A stretch of 64,000 bases of DNA from Deltaproteobacteria bacterium. Its GTDB lineage: Bacteria; Desulfobacterota; Binatia; HRBIN30; JACQVA1. Shown piece after piece: positions 32,230-63,830 of the stretch. The stretch is taken from positions 620,001-684,000 of the forward strand of contig JACOST010000014.1 of NCBI GenBank assembly GCA_016178705.1, in the 5' to 3' direction. The position numbers and the translations under genes are program-made. Within the stretch, counting starts at the first letter, position 1; each line of letters opens with the position of its first letter. Under the pieces are notes generated by a model. It was not told where the DNA came from, did not search any database, and worked only from the letters and a program-made list of their open reading frames with translations.

Positions 32230-32377
32230 GAGGCCTCCACCCTAGCCCTCCTCCGTTCGCGGAAATGCTCACGGAGGAGGGAACTGGAACTTGGCGGGTG
32301 ATGCGCGACCGCTGCGCACAAGGGTTCCCTCCTCTGCGGCATCACCCGCCGCGGAGGAGGGTTAGGGTGGAGGCCTC
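32230..32377. repeat. MITE-like inverted-repeat element, CCACCCTA family (A2)
   Basis: Outer arms of 26 bases, 32230-32255 and 32352-32377, are inverted with 25 of 26 matching (GAGGCCTCCACCCTA and its complement). Inside lie two nested inverted pairs, GGAGGAGGGAAC (32273-32284) with GTTCCCTCCTC (32324-32334), and GGCGGGTGATGC (32293-32304) with GCATCACCCGCC (32339-32350). The whole could fold as one long hairpin. It fills the gap between two convergent genes. No open frame of note inside. Confidence 0.85.
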
Positions 32378-53542: not shown

Positions 53543-53598
53543 GACCGCCGGGAGGTAGTGTCTCGGTTTGAACCGAACCTTGAGGCGCATCGGAAGTC

Positions 53599-53696
53599 GT
53601 CATTGCGAGGAGCGGAGCGACGAAGCAATCTCGCCGCAGTCAGCTCGGATGCTCAGCACATCGAGATTGCTTCGCCCTTGCAGGGCTCGCAATGAC
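53599..53696. repeat. Inverted-repeat element, GTCATTGCGAG family (C)
   Basis: Left half 53599-53633 contains GTCATTGCGAGG and CGAAGCAATCTCG; right half contains CGAGATTGCTTCG (53662-53674) and CTCGCAATGAC (53686-53696), exactly complementary and in reverse order. This dispersed sequence is widespread in unrelated bacterial genomes. It lies between the antitoxin-like gene and the end of hyuA. No cargo. Confidence 0.85.
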
Positions 53697-53773
53697 CGAG
53701 GATCCGGCGTCGGTGCAGATTTCAAGATGAGACACTACCCTGTCATGCAGGCGGACACGTGCGTCAGAGGCGA

Positions 53774-55828
53774 CTACATCTCGATCCGATAGTTCCCCAG
53801 CCGGTCTAACGTCGCCACTTGCTTCGGATGCAGCACGATGGTGGTAAATGGCTCTTCGATGATGGCGGGGCCTTTGATGTGTTGGCCAGCCCGCAGTTGC
53901 GGGCCGTCGTAGACTGGCGTGACGACGAAGCGGCCACCGAAGAAGGCTTTGCGGCGACCTTTCACAGACGGACGCACGAACGAGCGTCCCAGAGTCGGGA
54001 TCGCCGGTTTGTCGGTGACGCCAACCGCGGTCAGTCGCACGCTGCGTAGGATCGGCTCTTCGTCGCGCGAGGCGTAGGTATGCAGCTCTTCGTGGAGGGC
54101 GTGGAAGCGCTCAACCGTCCCGCTCACATCGCGAGCACTCAGACGGCCGTTGCGCGCTGCGATTGGCACGGCGATGTCGAAGGTCTGGCCCGGGTAACAG
54201 AGATTGGCGAAGCGGCGCAGCTCGATGCGTCCGCGTGCCCCGTGTCGCGCCGCCAGGACGGCGCGGGCGGCCGCTTCCATCTCGCTGAACAGGTGATTGA
54301 TGCGGTCGAGTTCAGCCCGACCCACCGGCGTGATGTACGCGCGCAACTCATCGATGACGTGATCCGACAGCAGCAACCCCAACGCCGAGAATGCCGGCGA
54401 GGTCTTCGGCACCAACACGGTCTTGATGCCCAACTCCTCGGCTTGCGCCGTCGCGTGCACGGGACCGTTGCCGCCGTAGACCACCATCGTCAAACCTCGC
54501 GGATCGACGCCGCGCGTCGCCGAGATGCGCCGGATCGCGTTGGCCATGTTGGCGTTCACCAAGCGATAGATCCCGTGTGCCGCCTGGACGGCGTCGAGAC
54601 CGAGCGGACGCCCGATCTGTTCCGCCATCGCATCGCGCACACCGTCGGTCTTCAGCCGCATCGTGCCACCACAGAAGTCGGCGGCGTTGAGATAGCCGAG
54701 CAACAGATTCGCATCCGTCACCGTCGGCGCGGTGCCGCCGCGGTCGTAACACATCGGTCCCGGTTCGGCGCCGGCGCTCTTCGGCCCGACTTGGAGCGAC
54801 CCCGCGACCACCGACGCGATCGAGCCACCGCCGGCGCCGATCGATTGCACGTCAACCATCGGCAAGCCGACGAGGTAGCGGTGATGCCAGTTCCATCCGG
54901 CTTTGATCTCCGGCTGCCCGCCACGAATGAGACAGACATCGTAACTTGTACCGCCCATGTCGGCACAAACGAAGTCGTTGGTCTTGGCGGCGCGCGCAAC
55001 CGCACACGCGGCAATCACACCGCCGGTCGGCCCCGAACTCAACACGGTCACCGGGCGACTAGTGATGTAGTCGGGCGTCATGATGCCGCCGTTCGATTGC
55101 ATCACCAACAGGTCATGACGATACCCCTCATCGCGCAGGCGCTCGACCAGGCGTCCGAGATAGCGCTCGATCTTCGGCGCGACGTAGGCGTTCACCAAGG
55201 TCGTGCTGGTGCGCTCGAACTCCGGCGCCGAGGGCATCACCTCGTGCGACAGCGAGATGCTGACGCCGGGGCATTCTTCGCGGGCGATCTCGCGCACGCG
55301 GCGCTCGTGCGCCGGATTGATGAACGAGAACATGAACACGACGGCGAGCGACTCCGTCCCGAGCTGCTTCAACCGGCGCAGCGCCGTGCGCACGGCGGTT
55401 TCATCGAGCGGAACGAGGACCTTGCCTTCGTAGTCAAGTCGCTCGGGCACGCCGATGCGTCGACGGCGCTGCGCGATCGGCGGCGGTGGCGGCAGTGCCG
55501 GGTCCCAGATGTCTTCCTTGAAACCGCGGCGCAGCTCGATCTCGTCGCGATGCCCCTGCGTGGTGATCAACCCGGTCACCGCACCGCTCATTTCGATCAG
55601 CGTATTGTCGGCGGTGGTCGTGCCATGGACGATCACCGCCGTGTCGTGGAGCAGTTCTCCCAGACTCAGATGTTCGCCACGCGCCAACTCGCTGATGCCC
55701 GCGATCACTCCCTGAGACTGATCGCGCGGCGTCGTCGGGCTCTTGCTCAACCGCAACGCGCCGTCGCGCCCAACGAGCACAAAGTCGGTGAAGGTACCGC
55801 CAACGTCGATGCCGATTCTGTAGCTCAT
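53774..55828 (-). CDS. hyuA: Hydantoinase/oxoprolinase A subunit
   Basis: 684 aa, actin-like ATPase fold. Begins MSYRIGIDVGGTFTDFVLVG (phosphate 1), with VVHGTTTADNTLIE and the later FVCADMGGTSYDVCLI and VDVQSIGAGGGSIA. The group includes ATP-dependent hydantoinases, 5-oxoprolinase and acetone/acetophenone carboxylases; the lack of a third subunit favours hydantoinase or oxoprolinase type. ATG 55828 overlaps the stop of the DUF559 gene by four bases (ATGA), so it may be translationally coupled to it. The partner subunit hyuB lies upstream of that gene. Confidence 0.93.
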   Translation of the reverse strand: MSYRIGIDVGGTFTDFVLVGRDGALRLSKSPTTPRDQSQGVIAGISELARGEHLSLGELLHDTAVIVHGTTTADNTLIEMSGAVTGLITTQGHRDEIELRRGFKEDIWDPALPPPPPIAQRRRRIGVPERLDYEGKVLVPLDETAVRTALRRLKQLGTESLAVVFMFSFINPAHERRVREIAREECPGVSISLSHEVMPSAPEFERTSTTLVNAYVAPKIERYLGRLVERLRDEGYRHDLLVMQSNGGIMTPDYITSRPVTVLSSGPTGGVIAACAVARAAKTNDFVCADMGGTSYDVCLIRGGQPEIKAGWNWHHRYLVGLPMVDVQSIGAGGGSIASVVAGSLQVGPKSAGAEPGPMCYDRGGTAPTVTDANLLLGYLNAADFCGGTMRLKTDGVRDAMAEQIGRPLGLDAVQAAHGIYRLVNANMANAIRRISATRGVDPRGLTMVVYGGNGPVHATAQAEELGIKTVLVPKTSPAFSALGLLLSDHVIDELRAYITPVGRAELDRINHLFSEMEAAARAVLAARHGARGRIELRRFANLCYPGQTFDIAVPIAARNGRLSARDVSGTVERFHALHEELHTYASRDEEPILRSVRLTAVGVTDKPAIPTLGRSFVRPSVKGRRKAFFGGRFVVTPVYDGPQLRAGQHIKGPAIIEEPFTTIVLHPKQVATLDRLGNYRIEM

Positions 55829-56199
55829 AACTTCGCGGGACCTTCTCCGGCCCCCTCGCCCCCTGGGAGAGGGCTGGGGTGAGGGCTCCTCAAGGCATCG
55901 CAAATTCGCGCCAGCACAGACTCCATATTGTTCAGCACCTCGTTGTCCCAAAAGCGCAGCACTCGGTAACTCTGTGCTTCCAGATAAGCCGTCCGCGCGT
56001 CGTCGCGCGCAACATTCATCGCGTGCTGACTGCCGTCAAGCTCGATGACGAGCCGGCGCTCGTCGCAGCAGAAGTCGGCGAAGTATGGGCCGACGGGATG
56101 CTGCCGCCGGAACTTCGCGCCGTTGACTTGGCCTGCGCGGATCTTCTGCCACAGTTTCTGCTCGGCGTCGGTTTGGTCGCTGCGGAGCTTCCGAGCCAT
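55825..56199 (-). CDS. DUF559 (Vsr-like PD-(D/E)XK) protein
   Basis: 124 aa. ARKLRSDQTDAEQKLWQKIR, then KFRRQHPVGPYFADFCCDER and RLVIELDGSQHA, and YRVLRFWDNEVL are the DUF559 core, a small relative of very-short-patch-repair endonucleases; Asp and Glu of the nuclease site (ADF, IELDG) and a following His are present. Family function is not established. The last 20 residues (SPHPSPLPGGEGAGE and so on) are encoded by the repeat arm at 55847-55888 and look non-functional. The stop overlaps hyuA's start. A GTG at 56244, at the edge of the right arm, is an alternative start. Confidence 0.85.
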   Translation of the reverse strand: MARKLRSDQTDAEQKLWQKIRAGQVNGAKFRRQHPVGPYFADFCCDERRLVIELDGSQHAMNVARDDARTAYLEAQSYRVLRFWDNEVLNNMESVLARICDALRSPHPSPLPGGEGAGEGPAKL

Positions 56200-56287
56200 G
56201 TTACGCTGGCAGATCGTGATTGACGGATGCGCGGTCTTTGTCACGGAGCCCTCACCCTAACCCTCTCCCAGAGGGAGAGGGGACCGG
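55847..56287. mobile_element. Inverted-repeat cassette A1 carrying a DUF559 nuclease-like gene
   Basis: Terminal arms 55847-55888 and 56246-56287, 42 bases each, are inverted with 37 of 42 matching (CCGG...GGGAGAGGG...GGGTGAGGGCTC). The only gene inside is the DUF559 gene. The cassette sits exactly between hyuB and hyuA: the right arm supplies the last 11 codons and stop of hyuB, and the left arm encodes the tail of the DUF559 protein. No clear target-site duplication is visible. Related cargo-free elements lie at 32230-32377 and 63721-63830. Mobility is inferred. Confidence 0.6.
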
Positions 56288-58117
56288 AGAGGCGGTTCGC
56301 AGTTGCGTGCGCAGTTGCGCGGTCGCCTCCGAATCAATCGCGAGCGTCAACGCCTCAAGCGACCCGGTCAGCGCCACGCCATAGTCACGGCGCGCGGCTT
56401 CAATCGACACGTACTCGTCGAGGACATCATCGAGCACTTTCTGCGGATCGCGATCGAGCGGATCGCCCCAACCGCCGCCGCCGCCGTAGCGGTACTCGTA
56501 ACGCTCGCCAGGTTGATGATCCACGTAGAACGCGGTGGTCTCGACCACATGCTCGTGCGGGCTGCCGCAACGCAGCTTGAGTTGATTCGGCGCGCCGGGT
56601 TTACCGCCGGCGATGCCAGGCATCGGATACTTCATGCCGACAACGTAGGTGTAGATTTGCGACGGCGCGCACAGCTCTTTGATGTACAGCGTGCCCGGAC
56701 AGCCGCGCCACTTGCCGGGTCCGCCCGTATCGATCGCGTAGTCGCGCGACAGATGCCGCACCGGGAAAATGCTCTCGTTGATCTCGCCGGTGGCGCGGAT
56801 GAGATTTCCGAAACTCACGTTCATCGCGCCCCAGCCGTCTTGACCGTGGACCGCGCCGCAATACGCCCCGAAGGTATCGACCGAATGATCGATAAAGAGC
56901 TGCTTGGTCTTCGGGTTCGTGCCGAAGATCACCGTCGGCATGCCCATCTTGTAAATTTGAGGGCAACAACGTTCGGGAATCACCTGCTCGAGCGCCATCG
57001 CCACCGCCTCGCCGACTTCGGTGCCGGGATGATGCGTGCCGGCGGCGACCGACTTATCGGGCGGCGGATTCAAGCAGCAGCCTTTCGGCACAATCAGCTT
57101 GATCGAGTTGAAGAAGCCTTCGTTCTTCGGGATGGCCGGGTCCATCATGGTGGCGATCTGCGCCACCACATAGCCGCGGGTGTTGCCGAAGGTCGAGTAG
57201 GCCTGCAAGTTCTCGCGCGTGTCGGAGCCGGTGAAATCCACGGTGAGGTCACTGCCCTTCACGGTGACTTTGCAATGGATGTGGATGTCCTTGTTCCCTT
57301 TCGGATCGTGGTCGACGTACACGTCGGACTCGTATACGCCATCGCGCCACTTGGCGACTTCCTGTTTGAAACGTCGCGCGGCGAAGTCGATCAGGTACTG
57401 CGCCGACCCGCGCACCGCCGCAACGCCGTGGCGAGCGATGACTTCCTTCAAACGCCGCGCGCCCAATTGCGCCGTGCCGATTTGCGCGCGCAGATCGCCG
57501 ATGAAAGTCGGCGTACGATTGTTGACCTTCATGAAGTAGGTGATGTCTTTGCGCTCGACGCCGCGCTCGTAGATCTTCACCGCCGGAAAGCGTACGCCTT
57601 CAGCCCAGATGTCGCGCGCGTCGACGTTGTAGCCGCCGGGCATCGCCCCGCCGGTGTCGGCGTGATGGCATTGGATCGAGGCGATCAGCACCATCTCGCC
57701 ATTGAAGAACACCGGCGCGAAGATGTTGTAGTCGGGCAGGTGGCCGCCGCCGTGATACGGGTCGTTCGCCACCAACACATCGCCGTCGAAGAGACCATCG
57801 CGCCCGAAGAAGTCGAGCGCGAAGCGCACCGGCAAGGTCGAACTCAGCATGAACTGCGGAATGCCGACGCTGAGCGCCGCGAGCGCGCCGTTGGCGTCGA
57901 GAATCGTCGCGTTGCGCTCGTTGGACTGATTGAGGATCGGCGTCGTCGCGGTGAGGCTGACATGCGTCGCCATCTCGTAGGCGATGGTCTCCATCGCGCC
58001 GCGAATGATCTCGGCGGTGATGGGCTCGACGCCACCGCGGACCGCGCGCAATTTCGGCCGCGGTCGTGCGGGCGGATGGAGTCGAACAGCTCGCTTCAAT
58101 TGGCGTCGTGCGCGCAT
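56252..58117 (-). CDS. hyuB: Hydantoinase/oxoprolinase B subunit
   Basis: 621 aa. ATG 58117 has GGGAGGA 5 bases upstream. It contains EIIRGAMETIAYEMATHVSL, NDPYHGGGHLPDYNIFAPVF, HHADTGGAMPGG, TVDFTGSDTREN and YGGGGGWGDPLDRDP, all characteristic of HyuB. It provides the hydrolytic part of the two-subunit enzyme with hyuA, which lies 424 bases further on beyond the DUF559 cassette. The last 11 residues (PVPSPSGRGLG) and the stop are encoded by the inverted-repeat arm at 56246-56287, so the native end was probably replaced. Confidence 0.94.
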   Translation of the reverse strand: MRARRQLKRAVRLHPPARPRPKLRAVRGGVEPITAEIIRGAMETIAYEMATHVSLTATTPILNQSNERNATILDANGALAALSVGIPQFMLSSTLPVRFALDFFGRDGLFDGDVLVANDPYHGGGHLPDYNIFAPVFFNGEMVLIASIQCHHADTGGAMPGGYNVDARDIWAEGVRFPAVKIYERGVERKDITYFMKVNNRTPTFIGDLRAQIGTAQLGARRLKEVIARHGVAAVRGSAQYLIDFAARRFKQEVAKWRDGVYESDVYVDHDPKGNKDIHIHCKVTVKGSDLTVDFTGSDTRENLQAYSTFGNTRGYVVAQIATMMDPAIPKNEGFFNSIKLIVPKGCCLNPPPDKSVAAGTHHPGTEVGEAVAMALEQVIPERCCPQIYKMGMPTVIFGTNPKTKQLFIDHSVDTFGAYCGAVHGQDGWGAMNVSFGNLIRATGEINESIFPVRHLSRDYAIDTGGPGKWRGCPGTLYIKELCAPSQIYTYVVGMKYPMPGIAGGKPGAPNQLKLRCGSPHEHVVETTAFYVDHQPGERYEYRYGGGGGWGDPLDRDPQKVLDDVLDEYVSIEAARRDYGVALTGSLEALTLAIDSEATAQLRTQLRTASPVPSPSGRGLG

Positions 58118-58138
58118 GAGATCCTCCCGGAGTTTCGT

Positions 58139-58239
58139 TACCACGGATTACGCGGATTACACGGATTCTCGGAAAAGAAGAGACGAATCGGCTTGGGCTT
58201 TTGGCATCCGAATCCGCGTAATCCGCGTAATCCGCGGTA
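58139..58239. repeat. Inverted-repeat element, CGTAATCCGCG family (B1)
   Basis: Arms 58139-58168 and 58210-58239 are inverted with 28 of 30 matching (TACC(A/G)CGGATTACGCGGATT and its complement). The 41-base spacer has no open frame. It lies between hyuB's start and the end of the cyclase gene. Confidence 0.85.
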
Positions 58240-63720: not shown

Positions 63721-63830
63721 GGCCCCCTCCCTAGCCCTCCCCCGTGGCCGGAAGTGGCCACAGGGGAGGGAACTCCGGTCCCCTCCTCCGTGAACATCTC
63801 CGTGAACGGAGGAGGGTTAGGGTGGAGGCC
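63721..63830. repeat. Inverted-repeat element, CCACCCTA family (A3)
   Basis: Arms 63721-63744 and 63807-63830 are inverted with 20 of 24 matching; the right arm CGGAGGAGGGTTAGGGTGG is identical over its length to that of the element at 32230-32377. Inner hairpins include GTGGCC around 63744. The right arm supplies the stop codon of the acyl-CoA ligase gene. No cargo. Confidence 0.75.

Follow-up and report, generated by a model that had tools for sequence, protein, structure and literature searches.

The closest described systems are the REP and REPIN sequences with their RAYT genes (REPtrons and TIRtrons). In the accessible part of PMC3733652 these are short palindromic repeats that occur as singlets and inverted pairs, with one gene flanked by its own repeats, a repeat family that tracks the enzyme, and gene-free pairs. 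The same part of that paper states that CGTC REPs have no known mobilising enzyme, and we claim no link between them and DUF559 here. A REP survey (PMC12306157) contained, in its accessible sections, no mention that we found of an endonuclease, DUF, RAYT or transposase. Box C is described in the accessible text of PMC2267715 as an E. coli repeat family of 50-56 bp. On the enzyme side, the accessible parts of two papers assign YcjD to the PD-(D/E)XK nucleases (PMC1189080) and call a DUF559 gene a member of the EDxHD family (PMC9403480). Our literature search, with subscription journals mostly outside it, did not turn up any paper that pairs DUF559 with palindromic repeats.

In the window (the whole 64,000-nucleotide stretch of DNA analysed), a DUF559 gene lies between two inverted repeats, here called arms, at the junction of hyuB and hyuA. 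The arms were located by sequence reading and an inverted-repeat search. The features are as follows.

32234..32373, no strand assigned: gene-free inverted pair of a second arm family (CCTCCACCCTAACCCTCCTCCG), which also flanks a divergent DUF559 gene on contig C28
53774..55828, minus strand: hyuA (hydantoinase A), with its ATG at 55826-55828
55825..56244, minus strand: DUF559 gene (PF04480, YcjD/Vsr-like endonuclease), with a GTG start according to the mechanical ORF list
55844..55889, minus strand: left arm
55853-55861 / 55865-55873: left-arm hairpin stem with one mismatch, loop 55862-55864
55874-55876: left-arm linker CTG
55877-55885: left-arm tail GGGTGAGGG, pointing toward the DUF559 gene
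56245..56290, plus strand: right arm
56249-56257, plus strand: right-arm tail CCCTCACCC
56258-56260, plus strand: right-arm linker TAA
56261-56269 / 56273-56281: right-arm stem, 9 bp and perfect, loop AGA
56252..58144, minus strand: hyuB (hydantoinase B, PF02538), native C-terminus intact

The arms are 46 nt each, 89% complementary and inverted, with 355 nt between them, and DUF559 is the sole gene that they enclose; the inverted arms reported around this gene by an earlier, sequence-only reading (37 of 42 bases matching) are real. Each arm is a hairpin with a tail, and on the plus strand the right arm reads CCCTCACCC-TAA-CCCTCTCCC-AGA-GGGAGAGGG. By reading, the tetranucleotide GTAG was absent from the hairpin foot in both arms on both strands. 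A 33-nt core of the right arm had no second match in the window at up to three mismatches and was present in 0/100 shuffles. In single-strand folding, three of four arms exceeded shuffles in stability by no more than a small margin (z -0.7 to -0.9); the left arm did no better than shuffles (z +0.9).

The arms also supply coding sequence to the genes that they touch, as the sequence-only reading had proposed. The hyuB stop (56252-56254) lies inside the right arm, which provides the last hyuB residues together with the stop, and the left arm encodes the DUF559 tail SPHPSPLPGGEGAGE, after which GPAKL follows outside the arm. The DUF559 stop TGA (55825-55827) overlaps the hyuA start as ATGA. This overlap is intact, in agreement with the proposal that the insertion kept operon translation.

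HyuB orthologues (E <= 1e-150) were found in 36/118 genomes of the class, the own genome included, and 30 loci were examined, one of them our own, in which hyuB and hyuA are 460 bp apart. At 14 of the 29 other loci, two of which (L121 and L122) have identical junctions, hyuA follows hyuB after 18-111 bp without DUF559. The closest such empty site has a hyuB 87% identical, a hyuA 83% identical and a gap of 105 bp. At one further locus the start of hyuA was visible by eye before the contig end, and two others had gaps of 797 and 1038 bp. For the remaining 12 loci the stretch contained no hyuA, and some of these stretches end soon after hyuB. Given these empty hyuB-hyuA sites, the simplest reading is that the insertion between two normally adjacent subunit genes would be derived in this lineage. 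One relative without DUF559 (L096 in G002) carries, by eye, a hairpin-and-tail repeat of similar style directly after hyuB.

Other repeats were seen close by. An inverted pair of short CGCGGATTACGCGGATTAC-type repeats lies upstream of hyuB at window positions 58140-58235, and a stretch coding for 'RHCEERSDEAI', which we take to be a repeat, lies downstream of hyuA at about 53570-53700. A copy of the arm found beside the C28 gene is also present at 63806-63828.

The window protein matches PF04480 with an E value of 9.9e-41 and 138.5 bits (curated cut-off 20.6), and the only other profile match in the unit, PF18741, was below its cut-off. An AlphaFold model of the protein had a mean pLDDT of 77. 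A Foldseek search with this model revealed similarity with 3hrl (N. gonorrhoeae NGO0050, 45% identity), the catalytic domain of the homing endonuclease I-Bth0305I (3r3p, E 2e-5) and, more weakly, Vsr (1vsr, E 3e-3). Sequence searches agree for 3hrl and for I-Bth0305I (hmmsearch E 5e-4). Residues E18, D47, E58, D60, H64 and D71 are invariant in the 33 sequences of one alignment (A2), and the positions of D47 and H64 are only nearly invariant in the 30 sequences of another (A1). These conserved acidic and histidine residues presumably form the active site. On the predicted structure, the window DUF559 protein is a PD-(D/E)XK, Vsr-like nuclease of the Vsr/EDxHD fold, and the Vsr-like assignment made earlier from the letters holds.

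Three DUF559 genes in the own genome (6.1 Mb, 33 contigs) are full-length, and a large protein contains a further, partial match. The copy on contig C11 has the same arm-gene-arm anatomy as the window copy on C14; by reading, the two become similar where the arms begin, and their flanks show no relationship. A 24-mer from the arm had 31 matches genome-wide at up to three mismatches, whereas its reversed control had 0, and 27 of the 31 are other than the arms adjoining the C11 or C14 gene. Both whole cassettes and bare arms thus exist here, which were the two forms that the sequence-only reading had suggested looking for. The third gene, on C28, is divergent, and its arm differs in sequence but shares the design. 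This arm type had 33 matches in the own genome, compared with 1 for its control, and formed 11 distinct gene-free inverted pairs of 106-159 bp, three of which adjoin the C28 gene and one of which is the pair at window positions 32234-32373. One genome holds two arm families with two DUF559 clades.

Arms are associated with DUF559 far beyond this genome. PF04480 was found in 54/118 class genomes, the own genome included and weak matches inside large proteins counted. We scored an arm as an ungapped inverted repeat with a score of at least 15 within 250 bp on each side of the gene. By this measure, 38/59 class DUF559 genes (all 59 PF04480 matches with E <= 2.8e-28) have arms, against 0/216 control positions taken around hyuB at 29 loci in this class. 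In named genomes arms were found at 58/80 DUF559 loci and at 5/659 control positions in the same loci; the 80 are the best of at least 587 raw matches and lean toward the type in the window. Eight partial DUF559 loci (L150-L157) were outside these counts. The armed loci in named genomes include alpha-, beta-, gamma- and deltaproteobacteria, Rokubacteria, Methylomirabilota, Chloroflexi, Kuenenia, Gastranaerophilales and FCPU426. Below the threshold were 21/59 class and 22/80 named genes, and three loci that pass it (L192, L209 and L237, the last with a run of C) deviate from the plan.

The stems vary in sequence (GGGAGAGGG, CGGGAGGGG, GGGGGAGGG, AAAGGGGGG), and the plan of S, loop, S', linker and S'-like tail recurs. 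Among the 96 armed loci the tail points toward the gene in 54 and away from it in 8, with no callable side in 34. The linker is TTG, CTA, CTG or TTA (Y-T-R) in 34 of the 62 loci with a callable tail. Inspection by eye found hairpin repeats near DUF559 in seven of eight loci from a plasmid collection, one-sided arms in E. coli (only 3') and Azospirillum (only 5'), direct repeats in N. gonorrhoeae (L280, record NZ_CP119142), and no hairpin repeats at the P. aeruginosa DUF559 locus. The L280 gene is likely NGO0050, solved as 3hrl. In Deinococcus the arms are tail-out. Viral contigs contained 39 DUF559 loci.

Arm sequence also follows protein sequence. Arm and protein similarity were correlated with Spearman coefficients of 0.51 (38 class loci), 0.24 (58 named loci) and 0.36 (all 96), and none of 2000 Mantel permutations of each set reached the observed value. 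The protein-nearest locus in another genome had a mean arm similarity of 0.79, compared with 0.53 over all others. These correlations are uncorrected for host phylogeny, which does not enter into the 16 same-genome pairs. Thirteen of these pairs have dissimilar proteins, of which 10 have dissimilar arms (<0.65) and 3 have similar ones (0.72-0.87); in all three pairs with similar proteins the arms are similar too.

Arm abundance was compared with DUF559 presence. At least five type-A arms (pattern matched at up to two mismatches) were present in 24/36 genomes with DUF559 (a match at E <= 2.5e-22) and in 10/82 without it (Fisher p 6e-9). Stratified by family, the association had a common odds ratio of 9.2 (p 0.011), and 0/5000 within-family permutations of arm counts reached it. 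One family (f8) gave no signal, with arms in 15/16 genomes with or without DUF559, and another (f12), whose DUF559 genes have other arm types, gave a weak one (1/9 vs 1/14). A xanthomonad arm pattern had 3-110 matches in nine genomes with a matching or near-variant DUF559 arm and 0-2 in eleven others, and a sphingomonad pattern matched 6-81 times in each of six sphingomonad genomes, once in one further genome and not at all in thirteen. For these two patterns the arms are near-symmetrical backwards, which makes the reversed control uninformative, and other lineages serve as the control. The sequence-only reading had held that its interpretation would be refuted if DUF559 were always at hyuB-hyuA, or if arms lay mostly away from DUF559 with no correlation in copy number. 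DUF559 was found elsewhere too; most arms do lie away from the gene, as the 27/31 in the own genome show, but their numbers go with its presence.

These results bear on the possibility that DUF559 is a passenger, captured between repeats that are moved by a RAYT, another transposase or slippage in replication or repair. Two genomes fit such a passenger: G051 has 127 type-A arms and no DUF559 match, and G093 has 152 with a weak match only. Either the repeats have outlived their nuclease there or the gene is missing from the assembly. RAYT-like genes are at hand as well, since Y1_Tnp genes occur in the own genome and relatives (37/58). None of the 35 Y1_Tnp loci examined had either arm type of the own genome within 350 bp, compared with 27/59 DUF559 loci; 22 of the 35 came from genomes with at least five type-A arms, and further Y1 matches lie outside the 35. 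Many of the 35 have inverted repeats of their own, and a RAYT as owner of the arms is unsupported. Together with the covariation of arm and DUF559 protein and the pairing of this one family with lineage-specific arms in several phyla, this makes the passenger explanation unlikely.

Loaded and empty forms were compared in several lineages. In sphingomonads, cassettes loaded with DUF559 have an inner length of 372-424 bp (L393, L399, L404, L405, L407). Pairs without a gene share the termini and tail-in orientation of these cassettes and have an inner length of 47-85 bp; 12 of these pairs were found by pattern and 3 by eye, in 20 stretches chosen for such pairs. The hisA-hisF junction was surveyed in 30 of 40 genomes of the genus of G128 (Sphingopyxis; L420-L449). 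It is native in 9/30 and holds a DUF559-type gene-free unit in 6/30. Five of these units add exactly 101 nt, and the sixth is incomplete in the available sequence; the five may be one old insertion. No target-site duplication was visible at this junction in the genus, where the junctions are not resolvable at base level. Two other families of palindromic pairs occupy the same place, TCGAGC-type in 7/30 and CCGGGG-type in 8/30. With three unrelated palindromic pair families in different species of the genus, hisA-hisF is a hot spot for REP-like insertions.

A second junction in the same genus is loaded with DUF559 in 2/30 genomes (L450, L469), shows the native gene overlap in 4/30 and has other sequence in 24/30; one locus (L459) with another palindromic insert before the start is outside the native count. 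In the copies that carry the gene, an open DUF559 frame runs from what was the downstream start and on through the arm; the DUF559 stop overlaps the new downstream start, a coupling like that in the window. In the cases examined, insertion is at gene junctions and preserves the reading of the neighbours. On Deinococcus plasmids DUF559 occupies three different junctions: it is intact between hpaB and an oxidoreductase gene in D. proteolyticus, degraded at the same place in D. wulumuqiensis, between the oxidoreductase gene and hpaE in strain NW-56, and after a VOC gene in D. aetherius. It is absent from the hpa operon in D. radiodurans, D. ficus, D. deserti and D. radiophilus. The D. wulumuqiensis copy (L292, pDrdA), a truncated DUF559 in the hpa operon with arm-like repeats still on both sides, is a decaying cassette. 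A plasmid search with the Azospirillum locus found no empty site; each of the seven records that match 80% or more of the query spans 99-100% of it.

In E. coli, the DUF559 gene ycjD is located between sapF and fabI. This arrangement, with at least 80% of the query covered, was present in 3362/5426 E. coli genomes, and in two inspected strains from the remainder sapF is followed by efflux genes. In K-12 the gap between ycjD and fabI contains CCCTCGCCCCTCTGGGGAGAGGGTTAGGGTGAGGGG, with the arm architecture of the DUF559 units; the ycjD arms are on the 3' side only, and some are degenerate. At up to three mismatches the repeat had 14 copies in KE47 and 28 in H240, with controls of 0, and of 16 H240 copies compared, 1 was at a position common with a KE47 copy. 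By its sequence and site, together with similar copy number and length, this dispersed repeat is probably Box C. Five Box C sites were inspected for target-site duplication, and the sequences of four were compared; the variants were allelic replacements, and we claim no duplication.

The conserved place of ycjD, as expected of a domesticated gene, would suit a second alternative, in which the DUF559 nuclease serves repair or quality control, either as a VSP-type enzyme or by trimming cruciforms, and has its recognition sequence next to its own gene, autoregulation being one possible reason. Arms would then spread as a by-product of repair, and the gene would not be selfish. The fold match to Vsr is in agreement with this, and in the accessible text of PMC12907096 the Caulobacter DUF559 protein VsrA was proposed as a VSP-repair enzyme. 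The same text reports that VsrA is needed for the SOS response of cells without a cytosine methylase, which is genetic evidence that a DUF559 protein is able to cause DNA damage in living cells. A resident repair gene does not account for two-armed cassettes at different junctions in close relatives, for the empty sites, or for the presence, within one genome, of two arm families and two clades of DUF559, and we regard it as quite improbable. That G+C-rich, terminator-like hairpins flank a small gene by chance is hardly credible: their folding energy is unexceptional for their composition, but the 0/216 and 5/659 control positions and the 31 dispersed arm copies against 0 in the reversed control argue against it.

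We therefore consider it probable that the unit is a single-gene mobile element of REP type, in which a nuclease of the Vsr/EDxHD fold takes the place of the HUH transposase. What carries this reading is the architecture and its association with DUF559, the covariation of arm and protein, and the bare arms, gene-free pairs and loaded and empty sites, all of them observed directly. A driving role of the nuclease in movement is our inference; we saw neither a transposition event nor cleavage or movement. The best reading of the window copy is that it is one such unit, which entered the hyuB-hyuA junction in this lineage. In the proposed mechanism, a stand-alone endonuclease of the DUF559/YcjD family would be flanked on both sides by its own REP-like repeat. 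Each copy of the repeat consists of a stem S, a short loop, S', a linker that is often Y-T-R, and, usually facing the gene, a tail made of another, imperfect S'. The nuclease would recognise its own hairpin or tail and nick or cut there. Repair or copying from the resident unit would then bring either the complete cassette or arm pairs lacking the gene to new sites, and propagation would be homing-like or REP/RAYT-like by a non-homologous enzyme.

A broader proposal is that such units form a class of REP-type elements across many bacteria, with a stand-alone Vsr/EDxHD-fold (DUF559) nuclease as the sole dedicated enzyme, which would disperse both single-gene cassettes and hairpin repeats through cut-and-repair, not through HUH or DDE transposition; E. 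coli Box C would belong to this class, with YcjD as its enzyme. We judge this proposal to have about an even chance. If the nuclease drives movement, this would be a new kind of element. Bacterial genomes hold short G+C-rich palindromic repeats without a known mobilising enzyme, and a single small family of nucleases goes together with a broad class of them, the cognate repeat and enzyme being recognisable genome by genome. The question of what moves such repeats becomes testable in ordinary strains (E. coli K-12 ycjD, Caulobacter vsrA), and DUF559, a domain of unknown function, gains a hypothesis for its function.

Among known systems, MITEs and insertion sequences resemble the unit in having terminal inverted repeats and gene-free derivatives, but the unit lacks a DDE or HUH recombinase and no target duplication was seen. 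The EDxHD homing endonucleases (I-Bth0305I, PDB 3r3p; PMC3943268, in its accessible part) have a catalytic domain with the fold of DUF559, whereas the DUF559 gene sits between hyuB and hyuA, is flanked by REP-like arms and encodes a single small domain. Vsr and Caulobacter VsrA (itself a DUF559 protein according to the accessible text of PMC12907096) likewise share the fold, but the window gene is in a mobile genomic context. Box C beside ycjD has the arm architecture of the DUF559 units, on one side of the gene. The closest likeness is to REP/RAYT, whose traits set out at the beginning all recur here. As in REPINs, the DUF559 arms are dispersed repeats that also occur as gene-free inverted pairs. 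A REPtron has a Y1 HUH transposase gene between its repeats; here there is a gene for a PD-(D/E)XK/Vsr-fold nuclease, the repeat is built as S, loop, S', linker and S'-like tail, and the Y1 genes examined lack DUF559-type arms. Since neither the defining Y1 HUH transposase, a protein of another superfamily, nor the GTAG tag was found, the unit is not a member of the REP/RAYT systems to which the sequence-only reading had likened it; it works like them, by a similar logic that recurs in several phyla.
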